A DNA stretch of 64,000 nt, from assembly GCA_013138865.1 (NCBI GenBank), contig WTBY01000037.1, positions 62,001 through 126,000 on the forward strand. Reading direction: 5' to 3'. Shown piece after piece: positions 30,379 through 46,323 of this stretch; the stretch's first letter is position 1; every line of letters begins with the position of its first letter. The translations under genes and the position numbers were made by a program. Origin of the DNA: Helicobacteraceae bacterium. GTDB lineage: Bacteria; Campylobacterota; Campylobacteria; Campylobacterales; Sulfurimonadaceae. The notes under the pieces are model-generated. The model was given only the letters and a program-made list of their open reading frames with translations, was not told the origin of the DNA and ran no database searches.

Positions 30379-30437
30379 GCCTATTTAAATAGTTTAGAAT
30401 GTGTGCCTATTTAAATAGTTTAGAATGTGTGCCTATT
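30379..30437. repeat. 26-bp tandem direct repeat, two copies plus 7 bp
   Basis: Unit beginning GCCTATTTAAATAGTTTAGA repeats perfectly at 30379-30404 and 30405-30430, then GCCTATT begins a third copy. Each unit contains the palindrome ATTTAAAT. It lies 7 bp after the waaF stop, at the left edge of the accessory island. Confidence 0.9.
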
Positions 30438-30556: not shown

Positions 30557-31639
30557 ATGTTTGGACAACTGAACCACTTGAAAATAAATGGTTATAAATC
30601 TATTAAATCACTAGACTTAGAGTTAAAACCCTTAAATATAATAATTGGTTCAAATGGCGTTGGTAAAAGTAATTTTATTGGTTTTTTTAAGTTTATGAAA
30701 AAAATTATAGATAAAGATTTACAATTTTACACAGCACAGCAAGGTGGAGCCAACAAAATACTATGTTTTGGAAGTCAGACAACTGATGAAATTAATTTTA
30801 ATTTAACATTTGATCCAAATGGATATAGTGCAGTATTAGTGCCAGGAAATGATGATAATTTAATTTTTAAGCAAGAAAAAACATCTATAGTAACTAGTGC
30901 TAAAAACTTTTTAAAAGACAACTTTGGTGGGAAAGAGTCTAATTTACCTAACAATTATTCTGCTAATGTAAATGGATTTGTAGTTGAATATATTAATGAC
31001 TGGAAAGTATATCACTTTCATGATACTAGCGCTACTGCTAAAGTAAAACAAACCTGCAATATAAAGGATTATCGTACTTTAGCTTCAGATGGAGCAAATA
31101 TAGCAGCTTTTTTATTATATACTAGAGATAATAATGAAAAGTCATATACCCAAATTGTTAAAACAATTCAAAGGGTTGCACCATTTTTTCATGATTTTAA
31201 ATTGGAACCAGAAATAAATAATCCTGAAACTATAAAATTAAAATGGAAGCATAAAGGAACAGATGACTATTTTGATGCTAATGATTTGTCAGATGGAACA
31301 TTAAGATTTATCTGTTTAACAACCTTACTGCTACAACCAAACTTACCAAAAATTATTCTGCTAGATGAACCTGAACTAGGGTTACATCCTTTTGCTTTAA
31401 TATTATTGGCAAGTATGTTTAGAAAAGTATCTAAAAAGACACAAATCATTGCCTCTACTCAATCAGTTACTTTAGCAGATAATTTTGATATCGAAGATAT
31501 AATAATAGTTGATAGAGTTGATAATTATTCAAAATTTAAAAGACTAAATAAGAATGAATATAAAGATTGGCTAGAAGAATATAGTTTAGGTGAAATTTGG
31601 CAAAAGAACTTAATAGGTGGAGTTCCAACTTATGATTAG
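30557..31639 (+). CDS. AAA (ABC-type) ATPase of a two-gene defence-like module
   Basis: 360-aa ATPase of the COG4637/AAA_21 type. Walker A IIGSNGVGKSNF at about residues 31-42 follows the typical start LKINGYKSIKSLDLEL; the signature LSDGTLRFICLTTLLLQP at about 243 and Walker B IILLDEPELGLHPFAL at about 265 follow, then IIASTQSVTLADNF. The gene overlaps by 8 bp the DUF4276 gene. ATPases of this class paired with an effector gene occur in OLD/Gabija/Septu-like anti-phage systems; this particular pairing is often seen in islands. A TATAAT lies at 30516-30521. AT-rich like its surroundings. Confidence 0.85.
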   Translation: MFGQLNHLKINGYKSIKSLDLELKPLNIIIGSNGVGKSNFIGFFKFMKKIIDKDLQFYTAQQGGANKILCFGSQTTDEINFNLTFDPNGYSAVLVPGNDDNLIFKQEKTSIVTSAKNFLKDNFGGKESNLPNNYSANVNGFVVEYINDWKVYHFHDTSATAKVKQTCNIKDYRTLASDGANIAAFLLYTRDNNEKSYTQIVKTIQRVAPFFHDFKLEPEINNPETIKLKWKHKGTDDYFDANDLSDGTLRFICLTTLLLQPNLPKIILLDEPELGLHPFALILLASMFRKVSKKTQIIASTQSVTLADNFDIEDIIIVDRVDNYSKFKRLNKNEYKDWLEEYSLGEIWQKNLIGGVPTYD

Positions 31640-32273
31640 AATAGCAATTTCTGTTGAAGGACAGACAGAGGATGAGTTTTGCAAACAAGTTTTACAACCA
31701 TACTTTAGAAATAAAAATATTGAATTAAAACCTGTGATTGTTACAACAAAAAGGCAAAACTGTGGAATAAAACATAAAGGTGGATGTATTAATCTTGATA
31801 GGATTAAAAATGAGATTACAAAACTATTGCAAAGTTTTGATTATGTTACTACATTTTATGACCTATACGGATTCGATATAACAGGAGAATTCACAGCTGA
31901 TGAATTAGAAACAAAAATAAGTGCATTATTTTCTGAAGATAGAAGACTTCTTCCATATGTTCAAAAATATGAATTTGAAACTTTACTTTTTAGTAAACCA
32001 TCATATTATGAAGAATACTTTGAATCAAATGCTAAAGCTGACATTGAACAAATTATTACTAGTTGTGGCGGAGTAGAAAATATTAATAATTCAAAGGAAA
32101 CAGCACCTTCAAAGCGAATTATTAAATTCTTTGATAAGTACAATGAACAATATGATAAAGTTTTCCATGGGGCGAGCATAGCAGATGATATCGGTTTAAA
32201 AATAATAATAGATAACTGCCCTAGATTTGCACAATGGCTAAAAAATATTGAAAGTTTACCTAACAAAGCCTAG
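31632..32273 (+). CDS. DUF4276 family protein, partner of the AAA ATPase
   Basis: 213 aa. DUF4276 hallmarks: RIAISVEGQTEDEFCKQVL at the N-terminus (conserved E-G-x-T-E), the GG of KHKGGCINLDRIKNEI, VTTFYDLYGF (D-x-Y-G), and LPYVQKYEFETLLFSKP (H/Y-E-F-E-A/T-L-L-F). The acidic residues recall a TOPRIM-like nuclease site, which is an inference. ATG lies 8 bp inside the ATPase gene; a longer non-ATG start upstream is less likely. Probably the effector of the pair. Confidence 0.85.
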   Translation: MIRIAISVEGQTEDEFCKQVLQPYFRNKNIELKPVIVTTKRQNCGIKHKGGCINLDRIKNEITKLLQSFDYVTTFYDLYGFDITGEFTADELETKISALFSEDRRLLPYVQKYEFETLLFSKPSYYEEYFESNAKADIEQIITSCGGVENINNSKETAPSKRIIKFFDKYNEQYDKVFHGASIADDIGLKIIIDNCPRFAQWLKNIESLPNKA

Positions 32274-32341: not shown

Positions 32342-32486
32342 CTTAGAAAATAGCTTGAAGTGCAATAAGGGTTGTAATTAACCGTGAGTTCTTGTCCATT
32401 TTTTATGACTTCCTTTGAAGTTCACACTATAAAATAAATCTGATCACTTTTTTATAACTCTCTTGTTTAAAACGCAAAAAGTGTTG
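32342..32486 (-). pseudogene. Decayed copy of the holA 3' end
   Basis: About 140 bp align base for base, without gaps, with the last 140 bp of the intact holA gene 4.1 kb to the right (36477-36616), same orientation, with roughly 20 differences counted by hand. Read on the minus strand it still gives FKQESY and LQAIF followed by a stop, but two in-frame stops interrupt it, so it is not functional. The matching ends where the real gene has its stop codon. Confidence 0.85.
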
Positions 32487-32537: not shown

Positions 32538-33779
32538 ATGAGAAAAAATTATATTTCAGCTATGCTAATAACAACCGTTTTATTTCTACTAAGCGGATGT
32601 AGCGCGTTACAAATTAATACACCTTCTTTAGCTAAAGATACAACTATTAAAACACTAGTAGTCTTGGATCGACCACATACTTTACTAGACTATAGACTAT
32701 ACTATGCACTTACACAATCAACACAAAGACAGAAGCTAGGACTTAAATTTAAACTGCATATGGCAAATCCTTTTTTAGCAAAGAGTATAGATATGCCACT
32801 AAAAATGAGAGAACAGCAACTCTCAATGTATGCAGATATAAACGCTAGTGTAAAGACATTGTTAAAAATTAAAGAGAGTAAGCCTGAGGCTTTAAGTATG
32901 TCATCTGCACTATTTGAGTACATTAAAAATAATCCTAAATCTAACCTAAGTAGTGCCCATATAGTAGCTTCAGAACTGATGAAAGATTTTAATTTAATGA
33001 TCATAGAACCAACAGGTACAACAGCTTTACACCCTCTTTATTATGATAAAAAGCTGATCTCTGTTAATGGTTATGGTGCAAATGTGTTAGATCTTCTTGA
33101 TAGTACTTACCAATTAATGTTAATAGACCATGCATTAAAAAATAACATACCTGTTATAGGAATGTGTCATGGAGCACAGGTTGGTTATGCCTATGCAGGT
33201 GGGGATCTTGAAAAGTACTTTGACGTTGAAGCCGAAGCTAAAAATTTAGCTGGAAATAAGCATATGATTATGGCTCGAGAAAACCCTTATGGTAGTGGCG
33301 TTGAAGTGTGGAACTTAGAGAACTACATTATGACAAGACTCTGGAACGACCATACAACCTCGTTTGAAAATATAAAATATCCAATAGCACCATACATGAA
33401 AAAGGCACTAAATATTTCTGATAATAAAGATATATTTATTAACAAAGAGTTTGCTCAGTCACTTGCTATGAAACTACCAGTACCAAAAGGTGTTGAGAGC
33501 TATACAATGCATCCATTAAGTAGCTTAAATGAGAATATGTCAACTGTTATTACAGACTTTAACTCTCTACCAAGTGAAGATAGTTATGTAACGCAAGAGA
33601 GTACTAAAAACTTTTTAGATGTTTTTAAAGATAAGCTACAAGTAGTGGACTTTTTTAAATATAAGACACTATATGCAACTCAGTACCATCCTCAATATGT
33701 TTATAACGATTATGACACAAGTTTAATATTTGATTTTTATACACAAATGATTAAAGAGAACTATAAAAAATTTAATTAA
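32538..33779 (+). CDS. Lipoprotein with class I glutamine amidotransferase-like domain
   Basis: 413 aa. Signal peptide and lipobox LLSGC (Cys20) place it in the cell envelope. From about residue 150 it has a GATase1-type fold: LLDSTYQLMLIDHALKNNIPVIGMCHGAQVGYAYAGGD, with the nucleophile elbow G-M-C-H-G-A-Q (Cys about 210), and late YATQYHPQY (His about 384). The usual Glu after HP is Gln here. This resembles gamma-glutamyl hydrolase/peptidase C26 proteins. The first 130 residues are helical and unrecognised. An export signal on such a fold is unusual. Substrate unknown. Confidence 0.75.
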   Translation: MRKNYISAMLITTVLFLLSGCSALQINTPSLAKDTTIKTLVVLDRPHTLLDYRLYYALTQSTQRQKLGLKFKLHMANPFLAKSIDMPLKMREQQLSMYADINASVKTLLKIKESKPEALSMSSALFEYIKNNPKSNLSSAHIVASELMKDFNLMIIEPTGTTALHPLYYDKKLISVNGYGANVLDLLDSTYQLMLIDHALKNNIPVIGMCHGAQVGYAYAGGDLEKYFDVEAEAKNLAGNKHMIMARENPYGSGVEVWNLENYIMTRLWNDHTTSFENIKYPIAPYMKKALNISDNKDIFINKEFAQSLAMKLPVPKGVESYTMHPLSSLNENMSTVITDFNSLPSEDSYVTQESTKNFLDVFKDKLQVVDFFKYKTLYATQYHPQYVYNDYDTSLIFDFYTQMIKENYKKFN

Positions 33780-33897: not shown

Positions 33898-36375
33898 ATG
33901 TTCACAAAAAAGAAAATATTTAGTAAAAAACATGTTGCAATATGGGTAAGTTTAACTGCTTTACTTTTTGTAGGTTGTGACAGTAATGAAAAGCCAGTCT
34001 TTAGTGGTAAAGTTATTGGTAGTCACTATGAGGGAGCAAAAGTTTTTATAGACTTAAATGATAACTTATTACACAATCAAGATGAACCATTCACAATTAC
34101 TGCAAAAGATGGTAGTTGGACTCTTGCCAATCCTGAAACTAAAGTATTCAATATTGTTGCAGATATTTCAGTAGGAAATACTGCTTATAAATTCAACTCA
34201 ATACCAATGATGAGAAAAGTAACAAAACCATTAAAATTTATTGCTTCAACACAAAGTACTGGTATAGATGGGCAAATTATGGTTAGTGCAATTTCTACTA
34301 TGGTTTACAAAGAGATGAAGAGTAGTTCCACATCATTAGAAATTGCTCAAGCTTCAGTAGCAAAAGAGCTTGGTGTTGAAGTGTTTGATATGTTAAATGA
34401 TTTTGATGTTCTAGAAAGAACTGAGATTACTGATCAGCTACAATTTGCTTCTAACATGGAAACTTCAGAACTTGAGACTAGCCCGGTACATGAAAGTTCT
34501 TCAGATGATAATACAAATTCATGTAAAAAGAAGTCAGGTTTTTTTAGTTTTTTAAAAAAAGGGGTTAGCTTTGTTGTAAAGGATCCAGAAGTAGTTGCAG
34601 CCACCTCAAGTCAACTAGTAGTTTTAAATGATGTGGAAGAAGATGATGATGATATAGATCCACCTGAGCCTGACCCTGCAGACAATCCAGATCATGATTA
34701 TACATGTCAGTTAAATACTATGATTGGTATTCAAGAAAATATTGAAGGAAATGTAACACAAATCAATTCTGAACTTAAGGTTGCAGATAGTTTATTGACT
34801 GATATTTATAATCAGATGATAGAGGATAATGAAGCAAAAGCACAAGAACAGATTAGTAAATTTCTAGTTGCTGCAAAAACTACATGGCAAGACTTTAACG
34901 ACAATTTTTTACCTGCAAACTCTAATCTTGAATTCGTTAAAAATTGCGTTAGTATGAAATATATAAGTGCAACAAATGTTTTTAATAACACTTCTGCTAA
35001 TGATAATAATATATTCGCACTTATAACCTATGTAGACACTTTACTAGGTTCTGGATTAGCTGATGACCAAATAATACAAGCTATGCTAAGTGCTAAGGTT
35101 ACACTAGAAAGTGAGAATAAGGTTACATCTACTCAAGGTACCAAAGGTGATGATATTGTTACACAAATGCTACAAAGTGGTAATAGTGCATTCTATATAT
35201 TTATGCAAATTGCTACCGCACTACAACAAACATATAATCTTGAAGCAGCAAATGCACTGTTTATATATTCTCAAATAAATGAAACTATGTGTTCTGATGA
35301 TAGTATTCAACTATTTATAGCTACAGATGGAATAAAAATTAAAGATACATTATTCGACAATATAACAACTTTGAATCAAACATATTTTGCAAGATTTAAA
35401 AAATTACAAGAGCTTATTATTAAATACTCTGGTTTACATAGTGACCATATGGATAATATCAATCCTGATTTATCAGATGATGTACCATCTGCTTCAAGTT
35501 ATGCTGGTGTGCCAAATGGAGATTGGACTAATGAGGGAACACTCTTTACACCAATGATACTAGTAGGTTCAGACTATAATGTAACTGGTTACTATGATGG
35601 TGTAACCTTAACAAGTGTGAACCCATATGATAGAAGCTCTAGGACAAGTTTAGATCTAAGTGACTGTTTAGATCCGTCTACAGATGCACCTACCTTGATG
35701 ACATATGGAACTATCTCCAATGAAATTAATAAAACTAATCAAAAGTTATCTTGTGGTTGGCTAAATGCCAGTAAATATTCATGGTTAATTACGAAAGAGC
35801 TCGGACATACTAGAGAACCTCCTTATGCGTGGGCTCATGGTATTGGTGAGGGTGATGCTTATAATACATATATTTATCCAGATAGTGCCTTTAATACCTT
35901 CTACCAGGGAAAAACTCTAATAAAAAATGGTGATGAAGAACATAAACCTGTTGTTGATGATAAAAATAACTTAAAGGTAGCAAGTAACAGCACAAAGGCA
36001 CAAACAATACAGTTTACATCACCAAATGGTGAAAAAGCCTTATTTCAGCTTGGATATAAAACAAAAAATAATGCAGCTTCCGGAGCATCTATAACTTGTG
36101 GCTCATCAGGTGAGGGAGAGTATTCGAATGATGACTATTCATGGACTTGTACAGGTGTTCAGTATGCTGATAAGTATTTAGAGAAGTTACATATTGGATT
36201 TCCTAAGACAAGTGGTGATAGGTATACTATCTACTTCGGATTCCATGGTAAGAATGTAGAGAAAAATCGTTATGCCAATGGGTATCTTGATCATTGTGAT
36301 TTAGGAGATTTTAGCTGTGCAAAAAAATTATACAAGGATTATAATAGCTATACTCTAATACCTTGGGTCCAATAA
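33898..36375 (+). CDS. Large lipoprotein, 825 aa, function unknown
   Basis: Signal peptide with lipobox LLFVGC (Cys about 27). Residues 32-90 (FSGKVIGSHYEGAKVFIDLNDN, then DGSWTL) look like an SdrD-B or carboxypeptidase-regulatory-like beta domain, often found on surface proteins. A highly acidic linker (EEDDDDIDPPEPDPADNPD) lies near 245-265, a helical middle follows (280-510), and the C-terminal third is rich in Gly, Trp, Tyr and Cys (SWLITKELGHTREPPYAWAH). No family recognised for the last 550 residues. It is 118 bp after the amidotransferase-like lipoprotein, on the same strand. Confidence 0.7.
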   Translation: MFTKKKIFSKKHVAIWVSLTALLFVGCDSNEKPVFSGKVIGSHYEGAKVFIDLNDNLLHNQDEPFTITAKDGSWTLANPETKVFNIVADISVGNTAYKFNSIPMMRKVTKPLKFIASTQSTGIDGQIMVSAISTMVYKEMKSSSTSLEIAQASVAKELGVEVFDMLNDFDVLERTEITDQLQFASNMETSELETSPVHESSSDDNTNSCKKKSGFFSFLKKGVSFVVKDPEVVAATSSQLVVLNDVEEDDDDIDPPEPDPADNPDHDYTCQLNTMIGIQENIEGNVTQINSELKVADSLLTDIYNQMIEDNEAKAQEQISKFLVAAKTTWQDFNDNFLPANSNLEFVKNCVSMKYISATNVFNNTSANDNNIFALITYVDTLLGSGLADDQIIQAMLSAKVTLESENKVTSTQGTKGDDIVTQMLQSGNSAFYIFMQIATALQQTYNLEAANALFIYSQINETMCSDDSIQLFIATDGIKIKDTLFDNITTLNQTYFARFKKLQELIIKYSGLHSDHMDNINPDLSDDVPSASSYAGVPNGDWTNEGTLFTPMILVGSDYNVTGYYDGVTLTSVNPYDRSSRTSLDLSDCLDPSTDAPTLMTYGTISNEINKTNQKLSCGWLNASKYSWLITKELGHTREPPYAWAHGIGEGDAYNTYIYPDSAFNTFYQGKTLIKNGDEEHKPVVDDKNNLKVASNSTKAQTIQFTSPNGEKALFQLGYKTKNNAASGASITCGSSGEGEYSNDDYSWTCTGVQYADKYLEKLHIGFPKTSGDRYTIYFGFHGKNVEKNRYANGYLDHCDLGDFSCAKKLYKDYNSYTLIPWVQ

Positions 36376-36472: not shown

Positions 36473-37447
36473 CTACAAAATAGCTTGAAGTGAAATAAGG
36501 GTTGCAATTAAAAGTGAATTTTTGTCCATTTTTTGTGACTTCATTTGAAGTTCACACTCCAAAAGAAGCCTGATCGCTTTCTCATAACTCTCCTGTTTAA
36601 AACGTAAACAGAGTTGAGAACGCTCTTTTTCTATAAAAGGTGGTAGTCTATAGCCTAAAATATCTGCCGAATTTACATTTCCATTTATTTTGATGTAGAT
36701 GTAAAATAGGTAAAGTGTTGTTAAAAAACTGCTAACGGCAGTTATTATACGGATCTCATCTTCACCATGTTCTAGTAGTAACTGAAGATCCTTTTTAAAC
36801 TCTTTTTTGTGAAGAAGTGCATTTATAAAAACATCAAGTTTTACCTCAGCGAGAGCAAAAACCAACTCATCTATATCTTTTGTAGTTACAGCTCTATCTA
36901 AAATACCAAGTTTTGAGAGTTCATTAAAAGCTAAAGCTAAATCACCGTTTTGTGCAAGTAAAAGGTGTGAAGCAGAATAACCATCCATATTTATATTTAG
37001 TGATCTTGCTTCTTCAAGAAGAATAGTTTTGGCTTCATTTTCGTATGGAGTAAATAAACGAACACTATCTCCTCCACTCTTCTTGTTAAAAGCAGAAGTT
37101 GCACTTGCTTTATAGTCACTTCCATAGTAGCCATAAATGAAAATATTGTCACTATTTTTTTGAGTAAGCTCTACTAAAATATCTAAATCTTTTTTAGAAA
37201 CTTTTTTTTCACTTTTGATTATTAAAATAGATCGATCACCAAATAGTGATCCTTGAGAAAGATGTGCTTTGGCTAAGTTAAAGTCATACTCATCATGGTA
37301 GAGTGAAACTATCTGTGCGTCAGCAACATTACTAATTCTTTGAACATAACGATCAATTAAAAAGTGACTCTCTCCAAAAAGCATGATCGCACTTGGAAGC
37401 CTTTGAGCTTTGATCGCATTGTCTAACTCATGGCGCTTTAGTGCCAT
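36473..37447 (-). CDS. holA: DNA polymerase III subunit delta
   Basis: Clamp-loader subunit that opens the beta clamp. 324 aa, typical length. AAA-like N-terminal part: MLFGESHFLIDRYVQRI (in place of a P-loop), LFGDRSILIIKSEKKVSKKDL, IFIYGYYGSDYKA; helical C-terminal collar (RLLLECELQMKSQKMDKN...). It starts 0 bp after the rnr stop, so both are one operon. Its 3' end is the source of the decayed copy at 32342-32486. Confidence 0.9.
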   Translation of the reverse strand: MALKRHELDNAIKAQRLPSAIMLFGESHFLIDRYVQRISNVADAQIVSLYHDEYDFNLAKAHLSQGSLFGDRSILIIKSEKKVSKKDLDILVELTQKNSDNIFIYGYYGSDYKASATSAFNKKSGGDSVRLFTPYENEAKTILLEEARSLNINMDGYSASHLLLAQNGDLALAFNELSKLGILDRAVTTKDIDELVFALAEVKLDVFINALLHKKEFKKDLQLLLEHGEDEIRIITAVSSFLTTLYLFYIYIKINGNVNSADILGYRLPPFIEKERSQLCLRFKQESYEKAIRLLLECELQMKSQKMDKNSLLIATLISLQAIL

Positions 37448-39382
37448 CTACTCTGCTTTTTCTTCTACTGTTGCAGTTATTTTTGCAGTTGCTATGTCTG
37501 AAGTTTCAAGTCTAACTATAAGCTCGTCAAAGAGTAAAATAGGAATTGTAGAGACTATGTGAAGACGAGCTCCAATGATCCCCTCTGTAGTCTCAGCAAA
37601 GATCTCATCTTCAGTTTTTATAACACGCGCTTTAAAAGTTTTACCTATATTTTCATCTGCCCAACGAGCAAATTTTCGTTGCATAAAGTCTAACTCAATA
37701 CTACCAGCTTCACGCTCTTTCTCACTAATGATTACACAAAGTGCGTCAATATTACGAAGAACATAAGAACCTTCTTCTGTATCGTTAGAGTTTATAGCTT
37801 TTAAAAGTCGGTGAATGATCAGATCTGAGTAACGTCTGATCGGAGATGTAAAGTGTGAGTAAGCTTCAAAGCCTAAACCAAAGTGACCAACATTGTCAGG
37901 TGCATAACGTGCTCTCATTTGTGACTGAATGATCAGTTTATCAACGTCACTTAAAATGTTTAGTCTCTCAGCTTCACGCTGAATGTAAGTGATCGTCTCT
38001 TTTAGTGACTCTTTAGGCTCGATCATCATACCGATTCCAGCTAACTCTTGGTAAAGTGTTTGAATTTTGCTCTGTGAAGGTGGTTCATGTATACGAAAAA
38101 CTCCACGCTCAAACTTAGAAGCTGCGGCTTTGTTAGCCAAGAGCATACAGTCCTCAACAAGTGAGTGTGATGGAGTATCATCTGCGATCGTAGTCGCTTG
38201 TATAAGTCCAGCTTCATTCAGACTCATTTCGATCTCATCTGAGCGAAAGTCAAAACCTATCTTAAGGCGTTTTTCTCTAAGTGCATCTGTAACTTTTTTA
38301 AGAGGTCTTAAATATGCAAAAACCTCTCTCTCTTCATCATTTTTAGGTTTTAATTTTCCCTCAAAAAAAGCATCAACATCTTCATAAGTAAAACGTCTAC
38401 TTGAGTGAATAATAGCTTCATAAACAGTTGCTTCAACAACTTCAAGTTCTTCTAGTTTCATCTCAAAAACATAAGCTAGTCTATCAACATGAGGTTGAAG
38501 CGAACAGAGTGTTTCACTTAAAGTTCTTGGTAACATAGGTATAGATCTGTGAGGTAGATAGATAGAGAAACTTCTGTAAATTGCTTCAACATCAATAGCA
38601 CCAAAAGGTTTTACATATTCACTAACATCTGCGATCGCCACGTAGATCGTTGAATTTGACTCATCGTAATAGATCGCATCATCAAAATCTTTAGCAGTAA
38701 CAGGGTCAATCGTACAAAATGGAAGTGAACGAAGATCTCTGCGATCACTGTACTTTGAAGCATCAACTTCATTAAACTCACTAGCCATAGCTAAAACATC
38801 TGGCTCAAACTCATCATGTTTATTGTAGGCTGATAGAACTATCTTCTCATCTACAAGAGGATCACTTATATTTCCTAGCACTTCTTCTATTGTATTATTT
38901 TCATTGTTAATTTTAAAAAGAGTCCCAACTTCATAAGTGTCTATCTCTTTTTGAGATATAGGTACACCAATATTGTAAGAGGTTTTTATACTAACAACTA
39001 CTTTTTCATTCTCATGTATCTTTACGATCGCGATCGAGTAACTCTGTTCACGTCCAACAACTTTAACAATTTTTGCACTTGGTCGTCCACGCCCACCTAA
39101 AAGACGTTGAGCTATAACTATATCGCCTTGAGTAGCACCATGCATATCATTAGTATCTATGTAAAGATCACGTACAGCAGTTGCTCCAATGATCTGTAAA
39201 TAGGCACTATTATCTTGCGAAACTGAGAGTGTACCGGCTCTATATTTTGAAGGGAGTGTATAGATGTTTTTTTCGTAAGTGATAAAACCCTCTTCAAAAA
39301 GAGAGTTTACATGTTCACGTTCGTCTTTTGAGATATCTTGTTCATAAAGACCAAGTGTTAGTTTTATTAAAAGGGTTTTAAT
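37448..39382 (-). CDS. rnr: Ribonuclease R (VacB family), probable ATT start
   Basis: 3'-5' exoribonuclease. The RNB core shows LPFCTIDPVTAKDFDDAIYY (four catalytic Asp), AYVFEMKLEEL, LVEDCMLLANKAAASK, HFTSPIRRYSDLIIHR; an S1 domain ends the protein (FKARVIKTEDEIFAETTEGIIG). The first ATG in frame (39145) would cut off a well-formed N-terminal region (KLTLGLYEQDISKDEREHV ... IIGATAVRDLYIDTND) typical of the family. That region is open back to 39382 but has no ATG, GTG or TTG; ATT at 39382-39380, overlapping the upstream gene's TAA as ATTAA, is the only sensible start, giving 644 aa. A frameshift or sequencing error is the alternative. Confidence 0.88.
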   Translation of the reverse strand: MKTLLIKLTLGLYEQDISKDEREHVNSLFEEGFITYEKNIYTLPSKYRAGTLSVSQDNSAYLQIIGATAVRDLYIDTNDMHGATQGDIVIAQRLLGGRGRPSAKIVKVVGREQSYSIAIVKIHENEKVVVSIKTSYNIGVPISQKEIDTYEVGTLFKINNENNTIEEVLGNISDPLVDEKIVLSAYNKHDEFEPDVLAMASEFNEVDASKYSDRRDLRSLPFCTIDPVTAKDFDDAIYYDESNSTIYVAIADVSEYVKPFGAIDVEAIYRSFSIYLPHRSIPMLPRTLSETLCSLQPHVDRLAYVFEMKLEELEVVEATVYEAIIHSSRRFTYEDVDAFFEGKLKPKNDEEREVFAYLRPLKKVTDALREKRLKIGFDFRSDEIEMSLNEAGLIQATTIADDTPSHSLVEDCMLLANKAAASKFERGVFRIHEPPSQSKIQTLYQELAGIGMMIEPKESLKETITYIQREAERLNILSDVDKLIIQSQMRARYAPDNVGHFGLGFEAYSHFTSPIRRYSDLIIHRLLKAINSNDTEEGSYVLRNIDALCVIISEKEREAGSIELDFMQRKFARWADENIGKTFKARVIKTEDEIFAETTEGIIGARLHIVSTIPILLFDELIVRLETSDIATAKITATVEEKAE

Positions 39383-40196
39383 CTTGATCTTGAACTTCTC
39401 TCATGTTATTAATAGCATCTAAAAGAGCAGCATCGTCTAAACCGTTTGCTTTAGCACAAGCAACAGCTTCTGCTGAACTCTCATCTGTTACAACACCATT
39501 TAAAGGTATTGCAATACGAACAGCTTGAAGAATAGCAGATCTAGTTTTTGTTTCAGGATCAGGTGCTTTTGATGGATCTGAACAGTATCTAATAGTACTA
39601 ATTAGTGAGTCTTCAAATCTCCAGTGATCAAATATAGTAGCACTTGCTTCTGCTGTATCTATCTCTATAAATTCAACTTCAGCTTCTTTTATTTTACCTT
39701 CAACAATCATAGCTTTGAAAGCATCTTTATCGCCACTTTCAATAATGATCTGAGCAATTAAAGCTTTACCAATCTCAACTAAGAAAGAAGCAGGAGAAAG
39801 AACATTTAACATAAGTCTATCAATTTTAGCATACCAGTTATTTACAAGAGCAACTTGGTTTTGAGAAAGTGATGCAAACTGATCGTTAGTAATACCGTAA
39901 GCAGAAAGGTCAAGTTTAAAGCTTTTCTTAACGATACTTGCAAGTGCAAAACCACGAATAGCACCCATACCAAAAAGACTAACAGCACGCTCTATAGAGT
40001 TAATTTCACGAGAAAAACCATAAAGTGGTGAGTTAGCTGCTTTTAAAATATCAGCAGTTAGAAGAGGATCAGACTCTAAAACTTTAACCATATCCATGAA
40101 ACTACTCTCAGGATCTTGGTAAATTGCCTCTATTTTAATAGCAGACTCAGGAAGTGGTGGAAGCTGTTTGATCTTTTCTAGTAACTTATCTTTCAT
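39378..40196 (-). CDS. HDOD domain protein
   Basis: 272-aa HDOD (HD-related output domain) protein: LLEKIKQLPPLPESAIKIEAIYQDPE is the canonical opening, followed by VLESDPLLTADILKAANSPLYGF and INSIERAVSLFGMGAIRGFAL. Stand-alone HDOD proteins act in stress and motility signalling without proven enzymatic activity. The gene overlaps the presumed rnr start (ATTAA) and is probably the first gene of an HDOD-rnr-holA transcript. Confidence 0.93.
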   Translation of the reverse strand: MKDKLLEKIKQLPPLPESAIKIEAIYQDPESSFMDMVKVLESDPLLTADILKAANSPLYGFSREINSIERAVSLFGMGAIRGFALASIVKKSFKLDLSAYGITNDQFASLSQNQVALVNNWYAKIDRLMLNVLSPASFLVEIGKALIAQIIIESGDKDAFKAMIVEGKIKEAEVEFIEIDTAEASATIFDHWRFEDSLISTIRYCSDPSKAPDPETKTRSAILQAVRIAIPLNGVVTDESSAEAVACAKANGLDDAALLDAINNMREVQDQD

Positions 40197-40291
40197 TATT
40201 TAACCCATTCGTAAAAATTTATTATGGCATTATACACATTTATTTGTTATGATACAATATTATAAATAATTTTAATGGAGAAATAGAACAA

Positions 40292-40618
40292 ATGCAAAAT
40301 ACTGAAATATTAAATCACTTAGGTTACAAAGTGAATGACGCTCTTTTAGAGCAGTTAGATAGAATTATCGAAAATACACACGGCTTTAGTAAAATTGTTA
40401 AACACGTTATGGACTTACATGATGTTTTAAAAGTTGATGATTCTCATGTAGCAATGTCAAATAGTTTTGATGTTTTTAAAATTAAAGTTGAAGCACCAAG
40501 TGAACCTAGAGTTGAAGAAGCACTAGAAAAAATTAAACACTTTGAAGAGAAATTTAAAGTAATTTTAGAAAAAGTTCAAGGAAAAGAGACTTACTACATT
40601 AAAGGCTTTGCTAAATAG
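40292..40618 (+). CDS. Conserved hypothetical protein, 108 aa
   Basis: Soluble, mixed alpha/beta protein beginning MQNTEILNHLGYKVNDALLEQLDRIIENTHGFSKIVKHVM, with a charged C-terminal half (EEALEKIKHFEEKFKVILEKVQGKETYYIKGF). No catalytic motif or known family recognised; it looks like a small lineage-conserved protein. GGAG ribosome site at 14 bp, own promoter region divergent from the HDOD gene. Its stop overlaps by one base the GTG start of the Gre-like factor, so they are co-translated. Confidence 0.8.
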   Translation: MQNTEILNHLGYKVNDALLEQLDRIIENTHGFSKIVKHVMDLHDVLKVDDSHVAMSNSFDVFKIKVEAPSEPRVEEALEKIKHFEEKFKVILEKVQGKETYYIKGFAK

Positions 40619-41142
40619 TGAGAGTTGAACCAATAACACAAGAGGGTTACGATCTTCTTCTTTTAGAGTTTAAATTTTTAAAAGATAAAGAGAAGCCCAA
40701 AGTAAATAGAGAGAAACAAGAAGCAGCAGCACAAGGTGATAGAAGTGAAAATGCTGACTATCACGCTGCAAAAGAGAAACTGCGTCATATAGATAAACGT
40801 CTTTTTTATCTTAACTCAATGATCGAAAAATCAAAAATAATAGACCCTTCTATACTAAAACACGATCGTGTCTCTTTTGGATCTACGATCACACTCTTAG
40901 ATCTTGAGAGTGATGAAGAGAGAGAAATAACTATTTGTGGTGTGTTAGAGAGTGAGCCTGATAATTTACTTATTTCTATTCACGCGCCACTTTCTCAAGC
41001 TATGCTAGGTAAATTAGAAGGAGATGACTTCATTGTCACCCTTCCAAATGGTAAAAAAGAGTATGAAATAGTTAAAATAGAGTACATAAATATTTTCTCG
41101 CTTAAACAAGTTATTAAGAGTGAAAAAGAGTTTGCTGTATAA
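40618..41142 (+). CDS. GreA/GreB-family transcription elongation factor
   Basis: Reactivates backtracked RNA polymerase by stimulating transcript cleavage. 174 aa. N-terminal coiled coil with ITQEGYDLLLLEFKFLKDKEKPKV and the tip region AAAQGDRSENADYHAAKEK (the catalytic acidic D/E pair: D-x-S-E-N-A-D-Y), then the C-terminal FKBP-like domain (RVSFGSTITLLDLE ... SPL-like PLSQAMLGKLEGD, YEIVKIEY). GTG start, one-base overlap with the upstream gene. Length and the extended C-terminus resemble GreB more than GreA. Confidence 0.88.
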   Translation: MRVEPITQEGYDLLLLEFKFLKDKEKPKVNREKQEAAAQGDRSENADYHAAKEKLRHIDKRLFYLNSMIEKSKIIDPSILKHDRVSFGSTITLLDLESDEEREITICGVLESEPDNLLISIHAPLSQAMLGKLEGDDFIVTLPNGKKEYEIVKIEYINIFSLKQVIKSEKEFAV

Positions 41143-41212
41143 GTAAACTCAGTACAAAGCTGAAAGCTTGTGCTAGAGTTTACTTACTTCTAATTCTGAA
41201 AGAATTATGAAG
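41143..41212. repeat. Double-hairpin intergenic repeat, copy 1
   Basis: Begins directly after the Gre-factor stop. Hairpin 1: GTAAACTC ... GAGTTTAC (8 bp) extended inwards by AGTACAAAGC / GCTTGTGCT; hairpin 2: CTTCTAATTCT / AGAATTATGAAG. The same element occurs after rpsR. It probably ends the transcript, though no T-run follows. Confidence 0.85.
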
Positions 41213-41217
41213 CCACC

Positions 41218-42384
41218 TTAAATAAACCTCTTCTTAGCTTCGGTAACTTTTTTCATATAGTCTCTAGTCTCTTTGTAAGGTAGTGAACTTCTTAATTTAG
41301 AGTAAACTTGACTTGGTGTTAAAGAGTTAATAACTTTAATAGCACGCGATCTATCATTTTTATAAAAAGTCTTTAACACATTCCCACTACCTGTATTGTA
41401 AGCTGCGATCGTACAGTATTCACGTGAGCGTTTATCTGTAATAGCTTTCAAGTATTTAGTGTTAATTATGTGTAAATAGGCACTTCCCATCTCTATGTTA
41501 TTCTTTTCGTTAAATAGGTAAGAGCGTGTTGGCATTCCATCTTTTCCTTTTAAGAACTTCCAACTGTCAACACCTGCACTATGTGGAACTATCTGCATAA
41601 GACCATAAGCTGGTATGGCACTTGTGGCGTAAGGGTTAAAACTACTCTCTGTCTCTATGATCGCATATATAAGTGATGGGTGAAGTTTAAAACGAGTTGC
41701 ATTTTTATTTACAAAAGGTGCTAACTCCTTAGCTTGGTTATGAAGTGCATTTTGAACCATAGCAATATCCACATAGTGAATAGTTTTTTCACCCTTAGCT
41801 GTCTTAATAAGTTTTGATTTATATGAATTTTTGAGTAAGTAAGAGGCAAACTTATTTGTACTCCACTCCCATCTAAGTGGTTTTTTATTCTGATCTACAA
41901 CTAAGTTATAAAGAAAAGGTGTTTTACCAAGCTTTACAGCTTTTGAAGAGTGCAAGTCAACATCACTTGGATCATAAGGAGTAAGAAGAGTCGAGACAAT
42001 AGCCTCCTTTAGCGTTCGCTTTGGGTAGTTGTTATCAATCGTCTCAATTGTTACACTATGGTGTTCAAAATCAACAATAGAGCGACTTTTATAGTCTTGA
42101 AGATATTTAACATACTCTTTTTGTGAAGCTACTTTAGGCTTCTGCTCCCATTTTTCAGAGATAATATTTAAAAATTCTACCAACTGTTTATGTATGATCT
42201 TTTCACTAGCTAAAACTTGTGCGATCGCAGGGTGCTGTGCTCCTGCAAGTCGCAAAGCTTTTTCGGTGTTCATAGTTGGTAGCTGAGTAAGTACATTTAA
42301 ACTTTGGTTAATTTGCGATGGTGTACACGCACTAAAGAGGTTTATAATAACAAGTAGTAGAAAGATAGAAGCTAATTTATTCAT
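41218..42384 (-). CDS. mltC: Membrane-bound lytic murein transglycosylase C
   Basis: 388-aa lipoprotein (signal peptide, lipobox LFSAC) of the MltC type. N-terminal MltC-specific domain (about 50-190; KPKVASQKEYVKYLQDYKSR, VETIDN-like), then the SLT domain at about 235-360: LHPSLIYAIIETESSFNPYATS with catalytic Glu, AYGLMQIVPHSAG, NIEMGSAYLHII, CTIAAYNTGSGNVLKTF. Cleaves peptidoglycan to 1,6-anhydro-muropeptides in the periplasm. Single gene between the repeat and the cytochrome gene. Confidence 0.93.
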   Translation of the reverse strand: MNKLASIFLLLVIINLFSACTPSQINQSLNVLTQLPTMNTEKALRLAGAQHPAIAQVLASEKIIHKQLVEFLNIISEKWEQKPKVASQKEYVKYLQDYKSRSIVDFEHHSVTIETIDNNYPKRTLKEAIVSTLLTPYDPSDVDLHSSKAVKLGKTPFLYNLVVDQNKKPLRWEWSTNKFASYLLKNSYKSKLIKTAKGEKTIHYVDIAMVQNALHNQAKELAPFVNKNATRFKLHPSLIYAIIETESSFNPYATSAIPAYGLMQIVPHSAGVDSWKFLKGKDGMPTRSYLFNEKNNIEMGSAYLHIINTKYLKAITDKRSREYCTIAAYNTGSGNVLKTFYKNDRSRAIKVINSLTPSQVYSKLRSSLPYKETRDYMKKVTEAKKRFI

Positions 42385-42436
42385 AAGCTATATATCGTCA
42401 AAAATAACTTAAGACAAAAATATAACTTTTTTACTC

Positions 42437-42453
42437 AGCAGTTTAAAACTGCT
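42437..42453. other. Perfect hairpin after the cytochrome gene
   Basis: AGCAGTTT and AAACTGCT form an 8-bp stem around one base, 6 bp beyond the stop codon of the minus-strand cytochrome gene. The flanks extend the pairing (CTC/AAG partly). No T-run follows in the minus direction, so it could stabilise the 3' end rather than terminate. Confidence 0.45.
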
Positions 42454-42458
42454 AAGTA

Positions 42459-43571
42459 TTATTTAATTTTAAAAGTTTCTTTAGAGATCACTCTAAGCTT
42501 TTTAACTTCTTTGTTATCTTGTAAACCAAACTTTTTTGCAGCACCTGGCTTCATAAGTAGGTGTCCAAATTTCGCAGTTACCACATCTCCACTTTTTAAA
42601 ACAAAATCAAAGTTAAAACTTTTCTTTGTATTAGCTGGTATTCTTGAGTCTGCAATATTTTTAGTTGCTAACCAAGGTGGTGTTTTTTTAGATCCATTTT
42701 TAGTTTTAATGCCTATTGTTTTGGACATATTCACAGGCTTCATTTTAATGACTTTACCATCTCTTTTGATCGTTACTACAAGTTTAGACATACGCAAAGG
42801 GTGTAGTGTTGAAGCATGTGATGCTCTATGATCAACTACAATACTAAATTTATTTTTGCTATCTTTTAAAGATAAAGTAACATATTTAGATAGTTTACTT
42901 ATATCACCATGAATACCTGGAAAACCATGAAATGTGTGATCTTTACTCTTCGTTACGTTAGATACAGAACCTTTAACTTTTGGCATGTGACATGTAATAC
43001 AGTTATTTTTACCATTCATATTATTGTCTTCAGTTGAACAAACATCAAAACCTTTTTTATTTGCTTTGTGCATATGACAACCCATACAAAGTTTACCAGT
43101 TTGAAAACCTTTATTACCAGTTACAATCTCATGAAATTCTGATTTAGCATTACCTTTTCTATTTCCAAAGTATTTTTTAGGCTCTTTAGAAATAACATTT
43201 TTATTCATAGCTTTACCTGGTAGTGTGTCAGATATTCTATGACAATAGGCACAAGCTACAGCCTCATTTTGTGTTTCATTATTAATATCTGGAATAACTC
43301 CATTTTTTGGCTTCAATAGAGCATCTAAGTTATCAGCAGTTGGAGTGTGACACTTGCCACAACGATATTTTTGTTTTTTATTCTTTTGTGGGTGTTTATC
43401 ATACACAGCTCCATGAATAGGATCTTTAAAAACTGTTGCATTAGCATGTTGTGATGTCATATACTCTTTAAAGATTTGAGGATGACACTCACTACACTTT
43501 TTGTTTTTTTCAAAATGCATATTTGCTTGAGCTAAAAGCCCAAACATCATTATAAGTAGTAAATTTTTCAT
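42459..43571 (-). CDS. Periplasmic pentaheme cytochrome c (cytochrome c554-like)
   Basis: 370 aa with an N-terminal signal peptide (LLLIMMFGLLAQA). Five CxxCH haem sites: CSECH, CGKCH, CAYCH, CMGCH, CITCH, all in the first 200 residues, spaced as in the cytochrome c554/multihaem CYT family. The C-terminal 170 residues have no haem motif and look like a beta-sandwich (SKLVVTIKRDGKVI, FDFVLKSGDVVTAKFG). Pairs with the upstream porin gene (9 bp apart), suggesting electron or substrate exchange across the outer membrane. Electron acceptor unknown. Confidence 0.85.
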   Translation of the reverse strand: MKNLLLIMMFGLLAQANMHFEKNKKCSECHPQIFKEYMTSQHANATVFKDPIHGAVYDKHPQKNKKQKYRCGKCHTPTADNLDALLKPKNGVIPDINNETQNEAVACAYCHRISDTLPGKAMNKNVISKEPKKYFGNRKGNAKSEFHEIVTGNKGFQTGKLCMGCHMHKANKKGFDVCSTEDNNMNGKNNCITCHMPKVKGSVSNVTKSKDHTFHGFPGIHGDISKLSKYVTLSLKDSKNKFSIVVDHRASHASTLHPLRMSKLVVTIKRDGKVIKMKPVNMSKTIGIKTKNGSKKTPPWLATKNIADSRIPANTKKSFNFDFVLKSGDVVTAKFGHLLMKPGAAKKFGLQDNKEVKKLRVISKETFKIK

Positions 43572-43580
43572 GACTTACCT

Positions 43581-44951
43581 TTAAAACTTATAGTTAGCTA
43601 TTAAACGAGTATGATTTTGAGTACGGTCTGTTGTAGCAGTATCATATTCTGAAGTTCTACTTGCATTAAATAGTTTTAACATTACATTTTTCATAGGCTT
43701 ATAAACTACAACAACATCTGCTTCAGTTGCATCTGTTGTTGGATTAACTTTATATTTAGCACTATACATATCTGATTTACCATAGTTAGCATAACCAGCC
43801 ATTAGTTTTAGACCCTTCATAATCTTGTAAGAGAAGAAAAGTTTATATGCTTTTACATTTGATCTATACTCATTACGAGAAAAAATAGAACTTGTGTAAC
43901 CTGGATCAGCGCCCCATGCATTTAAGAAACCTTTGTCATCTTTAGAATTTACTGATGCTTTCACAGTGAATGCTCTAATTTTAACAGCTGCTTGAAGTCC
44001 GTACATTGTCCCACCGTATTTATCACTTAAAATTGTAGTTCCATCAACTTGTCCACTGTCAACACTTTGGTTTAGTACTTGAGCTGAAAAAGTTGTTGAT
44101 ACACCCTTAGGTGCAGGAATTTTATAATCAACTGAAGCATAAAAGTTATTTAAAATATTTAACGCTCTAAAATCCCAAGCACTTATTTTTAGGTTATTAA
44201 ACTTATTTTCATAACCTAAAATAGCTATACCACTACTTGAGTTAGCTCCCTTTATTGTCTCATCAATTTTATAAAAATCACCTCTTTTAATAGCTGGTGC
44301 AACAGTTGAACCTGGAGTAGCAAGTGGTGAAATGTACATACCAGCAGTACCAGTAAACTCACCAATTAGTCCCCAGTCAGTAGCAGATCTACTACCATAA
44401 GACATTCTGTCCATGAAAGCTAAATTTACTTTACCAAAGCTAGTTTTAGCGCTTACTTGTGCAAACTCATACATATTTGGAACAAAAGTAATAGGTACTT
44501 TTGTTAATGGCGATTTGAACTCGCTACGAGCTACTTCTAATTTAAGTTCTTTTGTAGCTTGATAAGAGATGTGAGCACCGAAACTTCCACCATAAGCGTA
44601 GTCAGTTCTAAACTCATTCATCATCATACCAAATGCGACACCAGTACCTGCAGTACCTCTGTTAGTTTTAGTTAAACCAGTATCTTTTGAACCATAATAT
44701 TCAGCACCAACTCTAAGTCCATCTAAAACTTCTAGCCCATACTTTAAACCAAAACCAACAACACTCCCTGTGTCTTTATCATAACCATTTGACTTACCAC
44801 TAAATATTTGGTGTAGTCTTACATAACCATGTACATGACCATCATCAACAGCGTGTTTCGCTGTAATATTCATTGACTTCGTAGGTAGTTCTGCGTATGC
44901 AGATGTTGATAGCAGCAGACCTGCTAATAGTACTTTCGATGTTTTGATCAT
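43581..44951 (-). CDS. Outer-membrane porin (OprD/Campylobacterota type)
   Basis: 456 aa. Signal peptide MIKTSKVLLAGLLLSTSAYA; the mature protein starts NITAKHAVDDGHVHGYVRLHQIFSG and is made of alternating amphipathic strands with aromatic belts, ending in HTRLIANYKF, the terminal Phe typical of outer-membrane barrels. Layout matches porins placed next to cytochromes or transport systems in Sulfurimonas-like genomes. First gene of a two-gene unit with the pentaheme cytochrome. Its solute is unknown. Confidence 0.85.
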   Translation of the reverse strand: MIKTSKVLLAGLLLSTSAYAELPTKSMNITAKHAVDDGHVHGYVRLHQIFSGKSNGYDKDTGSVVGFGLKYGLEVLDGLRVGAEYYGSKDTGLTKTNRGTAGTGVAFGMMMNEFRTDYAYGGSFGAHISYQATKELKLEVARSEFKSPLTKVPITFVPNMYEFAQVSAKTSFGKVNLAFMDRMSYGSRSATDWGLIGEFTGTAGMYISPLATPGSTVAPAIKRGDFYKIDETIKGANSSSGIAILGYENKFNNLKISAWDFRALNILNNFYASVDYKIPAPKGVSTTFSAQVLNQSVDSGQVDGTTILSDKYGGTMYGLQAAVKIRAFTVKASVNSKDDKGFLNAWGADPGYTSSIFSRNEYRSNVKAYKLFFSYKIMKGLKLMAGYANYGKSDMYSAKYKVNPTTDATEADVVVVYKPMKNVMLKLFNASRTSEYDTATTDRTQNHTRLIANYKF

Positions 44952-45277
44952 TTATATTTCCTTTGTGTGCACTCCATTAAAACTCTTAATGCACAAATAA
45001 TTTGTGTAATTATATTGTAACTAATTTTAAATTATTATAAAACTATTACAATTCAACTATTAAAAAAATTAATATGTAACACCCATATAAAATAATTAGA
45101 AATTTAAAATCTTCACTTTAAAAAAGTTTAATCATTGAAATATTCAAACTAAAAATTTATCTTTAATTTATATAAAAGTAACTTTTTAGTATCATTGCGC
45201 GTTCCTTGCCCTTTGTGATCTATTTATTAGACCATATTATCCCGTAAGAGAGCATATACCAAAAGGAGAAATACTCT
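44952..45277. other. 326-bp intergenic region between porin and rpsF
   Basis: Very AT-rich divergent promoter region. No open frame of note. Near the porin start is a direct copy pair of GTGTGCACTCC/ATGCACAAA-like sequence without clear palindrome; the right third holds the rpsF promoter and leader (TTGTGA-N16-TATTAT at 45213-45240). The leader ATTATCCCGTAAGAGAGCAT to the ribosome site GGAG may contain the S6:S18 feedback RNA, but I could not fold it convincingly. Confidence 0.6.
45213..45240 (+). promoter_or_regulatory. Candidate promoter of rpsF-ssb-rpsR
   Basis: TTGTGA and TATTAT are separated by 16 bp and lie about 40 bp upstream of the AAGGAG ribosome site of rpsF. A GC-richer stretch (CATTGCGCGTTCCTTGCCC) lies just upstream in otherwise AT-rich DNA. 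Confidence 0.45.
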
Positions 45278-45730
45278 ATGAGACATTACGAAAACTTAGT
45301 AATCGTAAAACCGACATTAACTGAAGAAGAGATTCAAGCTAAATTAGCTGAGATCGCAGAAATTATTACATCTAACGGTGGTGAAATCATCGCGCGTGAC
45401 GACATGGGAATGAGAAAATTAGCATACCCAATTGACAAAAACGCACGTGGTTACTACCATGTTTTTTATTACACAATAGATCCTGCATCTATTATGGAAA
45501 TTGAGCGTCGTTTTAGAATTAACGAAGAGTTATTACGTTTCGTTACTATGAAATTTGACACTAAGCGTGAAGTTAAAGCTTGGACTGATCTAGTTGAAGC
45601 AACTAACAAAAGAGCTAAAGCATCTGCTAAAACTGTAGAAGCACCAGCTGCAACAGAAGCTCCGGCAGCAGAAGAAGCACCAGTTGCAACAGAAGTTCCA
45701 GCTACAACAGAAGAAGTAGTAGCTTCTTAA
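45278..45730 (+). CDS. rpsF: 30S ribosomal protein S6
   Basis: 150 aa. The S6 fold is complete: MRHYENLVIVKPTLTEEEI, GGEIIARDDMGMRKLAYPI, RGYYHVFYYTIDP, RRFRINEELLRFVTMKFD. After residue 110 follows a low-complexity Ala/Pro/Glu/Thr tail of about 30 residues (repeats of EAPA, ATEAPA), longer than in most S6. First gene of the rpsF-ssb-rpsR operon, with a strong AAGGAG ribosome site. Confidence 0.98.
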   Translation: MRHYENLVIVKPTLTEEEIQAKLAEIAEIITSNGGEIIARDDMGMRKLAYPIDKNARGYYHVFYYTIDPASIMEIERRFRINEELLRFVTMKFDTKREVKAWTDLVEATNKRAKASAKTVEAPAATEAPAAEEAPVATEVPATTEEVVAS

Positions 45731-45744
45731 TTTAAGGATTATTC

Positions 45745-46323
45745 ATGTTCAATAAAATAATACTGGTAGGTAACTTAACAAGAGACATCGAACTTCGCTA
45801 CTCTCAAAGTGGAACAGCGATCGCAAATACTGCTATTGCTACTACACGTAAATTCACTTCTAATGGTGAAAAGAAAGAGGAAGTTTGTTTCGTAGATATT
45901 ACGTTTTTTGGACGTAGTGGAGAGGTTGCAAATCAATACCTAAGAAAAGGATCTAAGATCCTAATTGAAGGTCGTTTAAACTTTGAACAATGGGTTGACA
46001 AGCAAAATGGTGGTAACAGATCAAAGCACTCTGTGGTAGTTGAAACTATGCAAATGCTTGACTCACGTGCTGATTCTCAAAGTGGTGGTGGAAATAGTAA
46101 TTACAATGCACCAGCTGCAACGCAGCAAGCGCAAAGTAATCAAAACTATGGACAAAATAGTGCTCCTCAAGGTGGTGGTTATAACAAACCTCCTCAACAG
46201 CAATATAGTGCGCCACAACAACAGAATCAACAATACAACGCACCTCAACAAAATCAAGCAGCAAGTATGCCACAAAATAGCATACCGACTATTGATATTG
46301 ATGAAGATGAAATTCCATTTTAG
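45745..46323 (+). CDS. ssb: Single-stranded DNA-binding protein
   Basis: 192 aa. OB fold at residues 1-110 (FNKIILVGNLTRDIELRYSQSGTAIA, VCFVDITFFGRSGEVANQYLRKGSKILIEGRL), a Gln/Asn/Gly-rich flexible linker (about 115-180, several PQQQ and YNAPQQ runs) and the conserved acidic tip DIDEDEIPF that recruits partner proteins. Binds and protects ssDNA at forks. Middle gene of the ribosomal operon, as in most bacteria. Confidence 0.98.
   Translation: MFNKIILVGNLTRDIELRYSQSGTAIANTAIATTRKFTSNGEKKEEVCFVDITFFGRSGEVANQYLRKGSKILIEGRLNFEQWVDKQNGGNRSKHSVVVETMQMLDSRADSQSGGGNSNYNAPAATQQAQSNQNYGQNSAPQGGGYNKPPQQQYSAPQQQNQQYNAPQQNQAASMPQNSIPTIDIDEDEIPF

Follow-up and report, generated by a model that had tools for sequence, protein, structure and literature searches.

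In textbooks, class I glutaminase folds belong to the cytoplasm. How, then, should one read a gene that appears to place a glutaminase-type active site behind the N-terminus of a bacterial lipoprotein, and is its product still an enzyme? The question is raised by an open reading frame at positions 32538 to 33779 of the plus strand of a 64,000-nucleotide stretch of DNA, which was analysed at its full length and is called the window below. A preliminary description of this DNA had proposed a lipoprotein that is exported and has a core of the class I glutaminase type, and the two parts of that proposal hold on different evidence: the core on Pfam, controlled profiles and an alignment-guided fold, and export on the N-terminus only. 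We describe the product here as a GATase/C26-like lipoprotein of 413 amino acids, in which the residues of interest are C21, C210, H384 and Q386.

The N-terminus and the glutaminase-type domain

The gene starts with ATG, has no internal stop and shows a codon use that resembles that of the neighbouring genes and is host-like. An RBS-like sequence, AAAAGGA, is seen by eye directly 5' of the start codon. Bacterial lipoproteins carry a positively charged n-region and a hydrophobic h-region ahead of a lipobox with the pattern [LVI][ASTVI][GAS]C, and the N-terminus of this protein, MRKNYISAMLITTVLFLLSGC, reads by eye in just this way: running from MRKNY to LLSGC, it has a positive n-region, then a hydrophobic stretch, then the lipobox L18-S-G-C21, in which C21 is the candidate lipidated cysteine. 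The clear lipobox that had been noted ahead of the active site is therefore there. The sole in-frame ATG besides M1 ahead of the domain encodes M9, and a start at M9 retains both the hydrophobic stretch and the lipobox. A lipid anchor is probable on these features, from which export, lipidation in the cell and localisation are predicted.

Two curated Pfam models match the protein above their cut-offs, PF00117 with 32.6 bits (E 7.9e-8, cut-off 22.8) in two stretches and PF07722, Peptidase C26, with 25.6 bits (cut-off 20.5). The highest profile score, 41.1 bits over residues 139-245 and 347-395, came from a profile built on 19 viral C26 proteins with the motif H-H-Q-M-M, which recovered both halves of the active site in the correct order; with the same profile, 500 shuffles gave at most 6.6 bits, and the 99 other window frames of at least 80 amino acids at most 3.4 bits. 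A second profile, built on 57 other viral C26 proteins, scored lower, at 34.4 bits, against 3.1 bits for its best shuffle and 4.2 for its best other window frame. In PHROGs the protein matched a glutamine amidotransferase only weakly (22.1 bits, E 2e-4). No NCBIfam equivalog cut-off was reached among the 13 models listed, of which the best, gamma-glutamyl-CDP-amidate hydrolase (NF045546), scored 21.2 bits against a required 250. No synthase domain or partner that would use ammonia was found within the protein by Pfam or recognised among its neighbours. Judged by these matches, and at an overall identity of 14-28% to the aligned relatives, the glutaminase-type domain is real and the protein is a member of the class I glutaminase superfamily; its mature part, from about residue 35 to 413, would have a divergent fold of the class I glutaminase type, with Peptidase C26, the gamma-glutamyl hydrolases, as its closest family.

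Structure prediction points the same way. From the sequence alone AlphaFold2 produced no fold (mean pLDDT 34.5), while guided by an alignment of the 19 viral C26 proteins (set A3) it reached a mean pLDDT of 50.9 and a pTM of 0.52, with 225 of the 413 residues below 50. The ten-residue blocks covering 151-170 and 181-220 have a pLDDT of 76-86, and the block 171-180 one of 53. Within the model, a strand at 206-209 leads into C210 and a helix at 211-219, which is the elbow arrangement, and a strand at 378-381 leads to H384. A GATase1-type core is present in this alignment-guided model of low whole-chain confidence: VIA-align matches it to PuuD with a Z of 16.2 over 220 aligned residues (rmsd 4.2), to Lin1909 and SpuA with 15.7 each, to plant GGP1 with 15.1 and to human gamma-glutamyl hydrolase with 12.9, and the glutaminases of aminodeoxychorismate and anthranilate synthases are interspersed among the C26-type matches at 14-15. 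Foldseek finds the same superfamily (best E 8.3e-7), but its TM-scores are modest: the top match reaches 0.30 by model length and PuuD 0.38. In the 50 fold matches listed, the aligned part begins at model residues 29-38, directly past the expected cleavage site, so the N-terminal strand is placed as well, at a low confidence (blocks of pLDDT 43-50) and in a region where A3 had no other rows. Because the model was guided by an alignment it counts as support and not as independent proof, and on that footing the alpha/beta glutaminase fold is supported. The earlier label "gamma-glutamyl hydrolase-like" is likewise sound as far as kinship goes: among the relatives found, C26-type proteins stand closest by sequence and by fold.

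Active-site residues compared with C26 relatives

The nucleophile elbow, G208-M-C210-H-G-A-Q214, matches G-x-C-x-G-x-Q, and together with the loop Y383-H384-P385-Q386 it identifies the triad-type residues as C210, H384 and Q386; both the G-M-C-H-G-A-Q elbow and the Y-H-P loop had been pointed out before. We compared them with 13 relatives (set A1) and with viral C26 proteins. Frames were chosen by the elbow pattern, the viral loci were retrieved with words such as GICRG and QWHPE, and 76 out of 85 viral proteins were kept after filtering by length, elbow position, a [QM]-x-H-x-E loop and redundancy. The 19 members of A3 were picked from these by H-H-Q-M-M, so that HHQ is there partly by selection; the unselected motifs are GG-x-D and R-D-x-x-E, and in the 76 viral proteins HHQ also. 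Aligned with these sets, C210, H384, both elbow glycines and Q214 are shared with 13/13 A1 and 19/19 A3 proteins, and G160 with 12/12 aligned A1 rows and 19/19 of A3.

The Cys-His-Glu triad is incomplete, as the preliminary description had stated: the third position is Gln386 here and Glu in all 13 A1 and all 19 A3 relatives. For this reason we do not file the protein as a triad GATase. The changes extend beyond the triad. The conserved GG-x-D has become G160-T-T-A, with Thr161 for the second glycine and Ala163 for the aspartate, each invariant in 12/12 aligned A1 rows and 19/19 of A3. At 188-192, R-D-x-x-E has become D-S-x-x-Q: Arg188 (13/13 A1, 17/19 A3) is replaced by Asp, Asp189 (12/13 and 17/19) by Ser and Glu192 (13/13 and 17/19) by Gln. 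The C-R-G of the elbow is C-H-G, with His for an Arg211 found in 13/13 A1 and 17/19 A3 proteins. The GG, HHQ, the Glu before the last strand and Q-x-H-x-E each occur in 76/76 viral C26 proteins, and within the A3-aligned columns the H-H-Q motif has no clear counterpart in our protein. Because GG-x-D, R-D-x-x-E, C-R-G and probably H-H-Q differ, we call the protein C26-like and not a member of C26. A further Glu-to-Gln change at a third invariant site, 368, was considered and dropped, being alignment-dependent (Glu in 19/19 A3, Gln in 9/13 A1), and only those at 192 and 386 were kept.

The distance from the nucleophile to the histidine is also unusual, at 174 residues versus 82-99 in the 13 A1 relatives, 90-123 in A3 and 87-143 in the 76 viral proteins; the C26-type median is about 100, which leaves some 75 extra residues between C210 and H384. 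The alignment of residues 229-370 varies with the settings, and our claims are independent of that region.

Among known systems, the PuuD-type C26 hydrolases (E. coli PuuD, 6vtv; Lin1909, 3fij; SpuA, 7d4r, 7d50 and 7d53) rank among the best matches both by fold, with Z values of 14.3-16.2, and among the PDB entries found with the A1 profile. They share with the lipoprotein the G-x-C-x-G-x-Q elbow, the Q-x-H-P loop, and P166 and Y169 after the oxyanion loop; they differ in lacking the lipoprotein N-terminus, the Gln in place of the triad Glu, the altered GG-x-D, R-D-x-x-E and C-R-G, and the long Cys-to-His spacing. The viral proteins of A3, small C26-like proteins with H-H-Q-M-M seen on viral contigs such as L077, L079-L083 and L087, have 199-250 residues, lack an evident signal peptide in those rows that were read, and have an intact H-H-Q and Q-x-H-P-E (partly by selection); a G-x-x-H context at H242 is common to them and our protein in the A3 alignment, although the region aligns otherwise under other settings. 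Human gamma-glutamyl hydrolase (1l9x), which has the same fold and weak sequence similarity, is exported in eukaryotes and is not known to carry a lipid anchor. The cyanophycinase CphE of Pseudomonas alcaligenes belongs to the glutaminase-like superfamily but uses a serine nucleophile and is of a different family. It is reported to be extracellular and made with a leader peptide (PMC3235067).

An enzyme or a binding protein

The most likely reading, to which we give about even credence, is that the protein is a divergent exported C26-like thiol hydrolase with a predicted activity. It would be exported via Sec, lipidated at Cys21 and anchored toward the periplasm or the cell surface. At the nucleophile elbow, Cys210 would be activated by His384, with Gln386 or no residue as the third member, and would attack a small amide or gamma-glutamyl-like bond to form a thioester that water then releases, so that the enzyme would hydrolyse without donating ammonia. 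Catalytic activity and substrate class are what we infer from this arrangement.

Does the missing glutamate speak against catalysis? The preliminary description had offered a pseudoenzyme as one explanation, on the ground that Glu is replaced by Gln, and that argument turns out weaker than stated. GatD and CobB/CobQ are glutaminase parts of amidotransferases, are not known to be exported and are not among the closest sequence matches of our protein. Like it, they keep the Cys-His pair without the Glu (PMC5871853). In that source, the E. coli carbamoyl-phosphate synthetase is described as requiring its Cys and His but not Glu355, the IGPS data as favouring a non-catalytic Glu, GatD as possibly working as a Cys-His dyad with a third residue possible in the full complex, and CobB/CobQ as likewise devoid of a triad Glu (PMC5871853). 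Because catalysis without the Glu is thus reported for class I glutaminases, and Cys-His dyads are supported for them, Gln386 alone is weak evidence for a pseudoenzyme (PMC5871853). Stronger evidence would lie in the changed GG-x-D, R-D-x-x-E and C-R-G. This wider change of the C26 hallmarks points to a new substrate or, alternatively, to a role in binding.

The binding role is a close rival, if somewhat less probable. A C26-like fold may have been turned into an envelope lipoprotein that binds a glutamyl-like ligand or another protein, or that serves as a scaffold, and cuts nothing; the replacement of several family-conserved residues besides the triad Glu and the roughly 75 additional residues separating C210 and H384 agree with this. 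Set against it is the retention, at 14-28% identity, of both chemically essential residues and of the full G-x-C-x-G-x-Q elbow, together with the point that loss of the Glu alone does not end catalysis in this fold (PMC5871853).

A more specific proposal of the preliminary description, an envelope endopeptidase or amidase acting on gamma-D-Glu bonds of peptidoglycan, finds no specific support and is improbable. The N-terminus implies export, possibly to a position facing the cell wall, C26 enzymes cleave gamma-glutamyl bonds, and the gene of an MltC-type lytic transglycosylase lipoprotein (41218-42384, minus strand; Mltc_N and SLT domains) lies 7.4 kb to the right of the GATase gene. This is, however, the nearest recognised cell-wall gene, on the other strand and outside the repeats described below; the immediate neighbours include none, the Pfam matches of the protein include no peptidoglycan-binding domain, known C26 enzymes work on small free gamma-glutamyl compounds, and the C26-conserved residues are changed.

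More doubtful still is a cytoplasmic enzyme whose lipobox would have arisen by chance or whose start codon would be misplaced. Those C26-like relatives in the phylum whose N-termini were read do look cytoplasmic by eye, but the alternative start at M9 would leave the hydrophobic stretch and lipobox in place, the RBS-like AAAAGGA precedes M1, and the fold matches, among the 50 listed, begin right after the expected cleavage site. Least credible of all is a chance elbow motif in an unrelated lipoprotein without any glutaminase fold, with which the foldless single-sequence AlphaFold2 run and an orphan status that precludes an independent family alignment would agree, but which has to contend with two Pfam models above cut-off, a profile score of 41.1 bits where 500 shuffles do not exceed 6.6, and fold matches at a Z of about 16 (alignment-guided).

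The wider meaning is conditional: if the protein is lipid-anchored, with Cys and His kept and the rest of the pocket rebuilt, it would show how a glutaminase fold reaches the envelope, and it would offer a simple test case of whether Cys-His suffices without Glu. The reach of the finding is limited to one known genome and comes with no substrate clue.

Distribution and the repeat-flanked segment

A search of the source genome at E values up to 10 returned only the protein itself. No orthologue was found in 151, then 228, genomes of the family (at least 40% completeness, up to 8 candidates scored per genome), where seven genomes matched at E 1e-3, namely the protein itself and six matches to the elbow region, at 33-40% identity, in C26-like frames where reading by eye shows no evident signal peptide. 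Nor was one found in 397 genomes of the phylum (up to 4 candidates per genome scored), in plasmid and phage collections at the sensitivities used, or by peptide words in genome and viral contigs, which gave near relatives only; the degenerate pattern P-x-x-G-M-C-H-G-A-Q had 0 matches in the same contigs. We do not count a class-level search as independent, because its 21 listed genomes are those of the phylum search. These searches reach mainly the same phylum and similar elbow letters, so that distant relatives may exist elsewhere, and the source genus is represented by one genome in the collection; within what was searched, the protein appears to be an orphan of one genome.

The genome has nine PF00117 places, one of them our protein, and seven of the eight others were read (L004-L008, L010 and L011), with no evident signal peptide by eye. 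The 42 relative loci yielded 37 frames (L003, L009, L013, L026 and L027 gave none, L026 being read separately), of which three are the lipoprotein itself; in the other 34, no signal peptide is evident by eye. The searches made did not turn up the combination of a bacterial lipoprotein and a C26-type glutaminase core anywhere else, and literature searches of titles and abstract starts returned no published description of an exported C26 or GATase lipoprotein.

The gene is followed on the same strand, after the 118 bp that the preliminary description had given, by a reading frame at 33898-36375 for a large lipoprotein-like protein of 825 amino acids, known from the open reading frame, its lipobox by eye and similarity searches. 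The gap and strand stand, but as a second lipoprotein it is less secure, its lipobox being a weaker F-V-G-C with Phe at -3. Parts of its first 210 or so residues match proteins in nine other genomes of the family at 30-38% identity, and six of these nine have a lipobox by pattern; residues 411-663 have a distant paralogue (33%) in the same genome, within a 685-residue protein. This exported-looking paralogue (L043:5409-7466, contig G000:C62) adjoins a reading frame at 7655-8332 that carries a DUF772 transposase domain. The GATase lipoprotein is absent, by the family search, from all nine genomes that match the 825-residue protein, and since no G-x-C-x-G-x-Q frame occurs in the short loci read around these matches or around the own-genome paralogue, the pair is not obligate. 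PADLOC matched neither of the two lipoprotein genes.

Both genes lie in a 4.1-kb segment bounded by a 143-bp direct repeat of the 3' end of a gene at 36473-37447, which we take to be holA (it has no Pfam match at 1e-5). The right copy, 36474-36616 on the minus strand, is the intact end of that gene; the left copy, 32344-32486 on the same strand, is decayed, being 85% identical, with 22 differences over 144 bases in frame and two internal stops. A 78-base piece of the repeat matches strongly at these two places of the genome only, and the decayed copy is closer to its own genome's holA than to the holA of 19 relatives. Between the repeats the open reading frames of at least 100 amino acids are the two lipoprotein genes, neither with an integrase or recombinase match in Pfam, and one overlapping frame of 100 amino acids on the minus strand; no integrase or recombinase was found. 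The segment has the appearance of an old insertion at the 3' end of holA, either alone or together with a duplication.

If the repeat dates the arrival of the segment, the two open reading frames stayed open while the holA copy decayed. Under simulated neutral change the GATase reading frame remained free of stops in 0.1% of 2000 runs at 15% change, 7.7% at 5% and 19% at 3%, and the 825-codon frame in 0/2000 at 15%, an argument that takes the repeat to be as old as the arrival of the segment and that is weak if the change was small.

In 6 of the 19 relatives rpsF follows holA; here the rnr-holA run is on the minus strand and rpsF (Ribosomal_S6) and ssb are 8 kb off on the plus strand (region 36473-46323), which suggests that the 3' end of holA may be one limit of a rearrangement, perhaps of an inversion. 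None of the 12 window proteins tested besides rnr and holA was found in the holA stretches of the 19 relatives, two of which are shorter than 300 bp.

To the left of the segment, outside the repeats, lies a candidate defence system, the HEC-01 pair (30557-32273, plus strand), consisting of an AAA ATPase at 30557-31639 (HEC-01A, 490 bits in PADLOC) and a DUF4276 protein at 31617-32273 (HEC-01B, 216 bits), both recognised by Pfam as well. The term HEC-01 did not occur among the literature matches listed. New here is the repeat-flanked 4.1-kb setting of the GATase lipoprotein and its lipoprotein-like neighbour beside this pair. A fuller reading, which we hold only tentatively and consider unlikely as a whole, would join these elements: the protein would be an active thiol hydrolase of the Cys-His(-Gln) type, anchored in the envelope, that has a remodelled pocket and acts on a new substrate outside the cytoplasm, and its gene would be the cargo of a small repeat-flanked segment beside a candidate defence pair.

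Two smaller features of the left side were also seen. The GC3 of the HEC-01 genes, 0.156 and 0.170, is lower than that of most neighbours, and a perfect tandem copy of a 26-bp unit is found at 30379-30430, between a heptosyltransferase gene and the pair.
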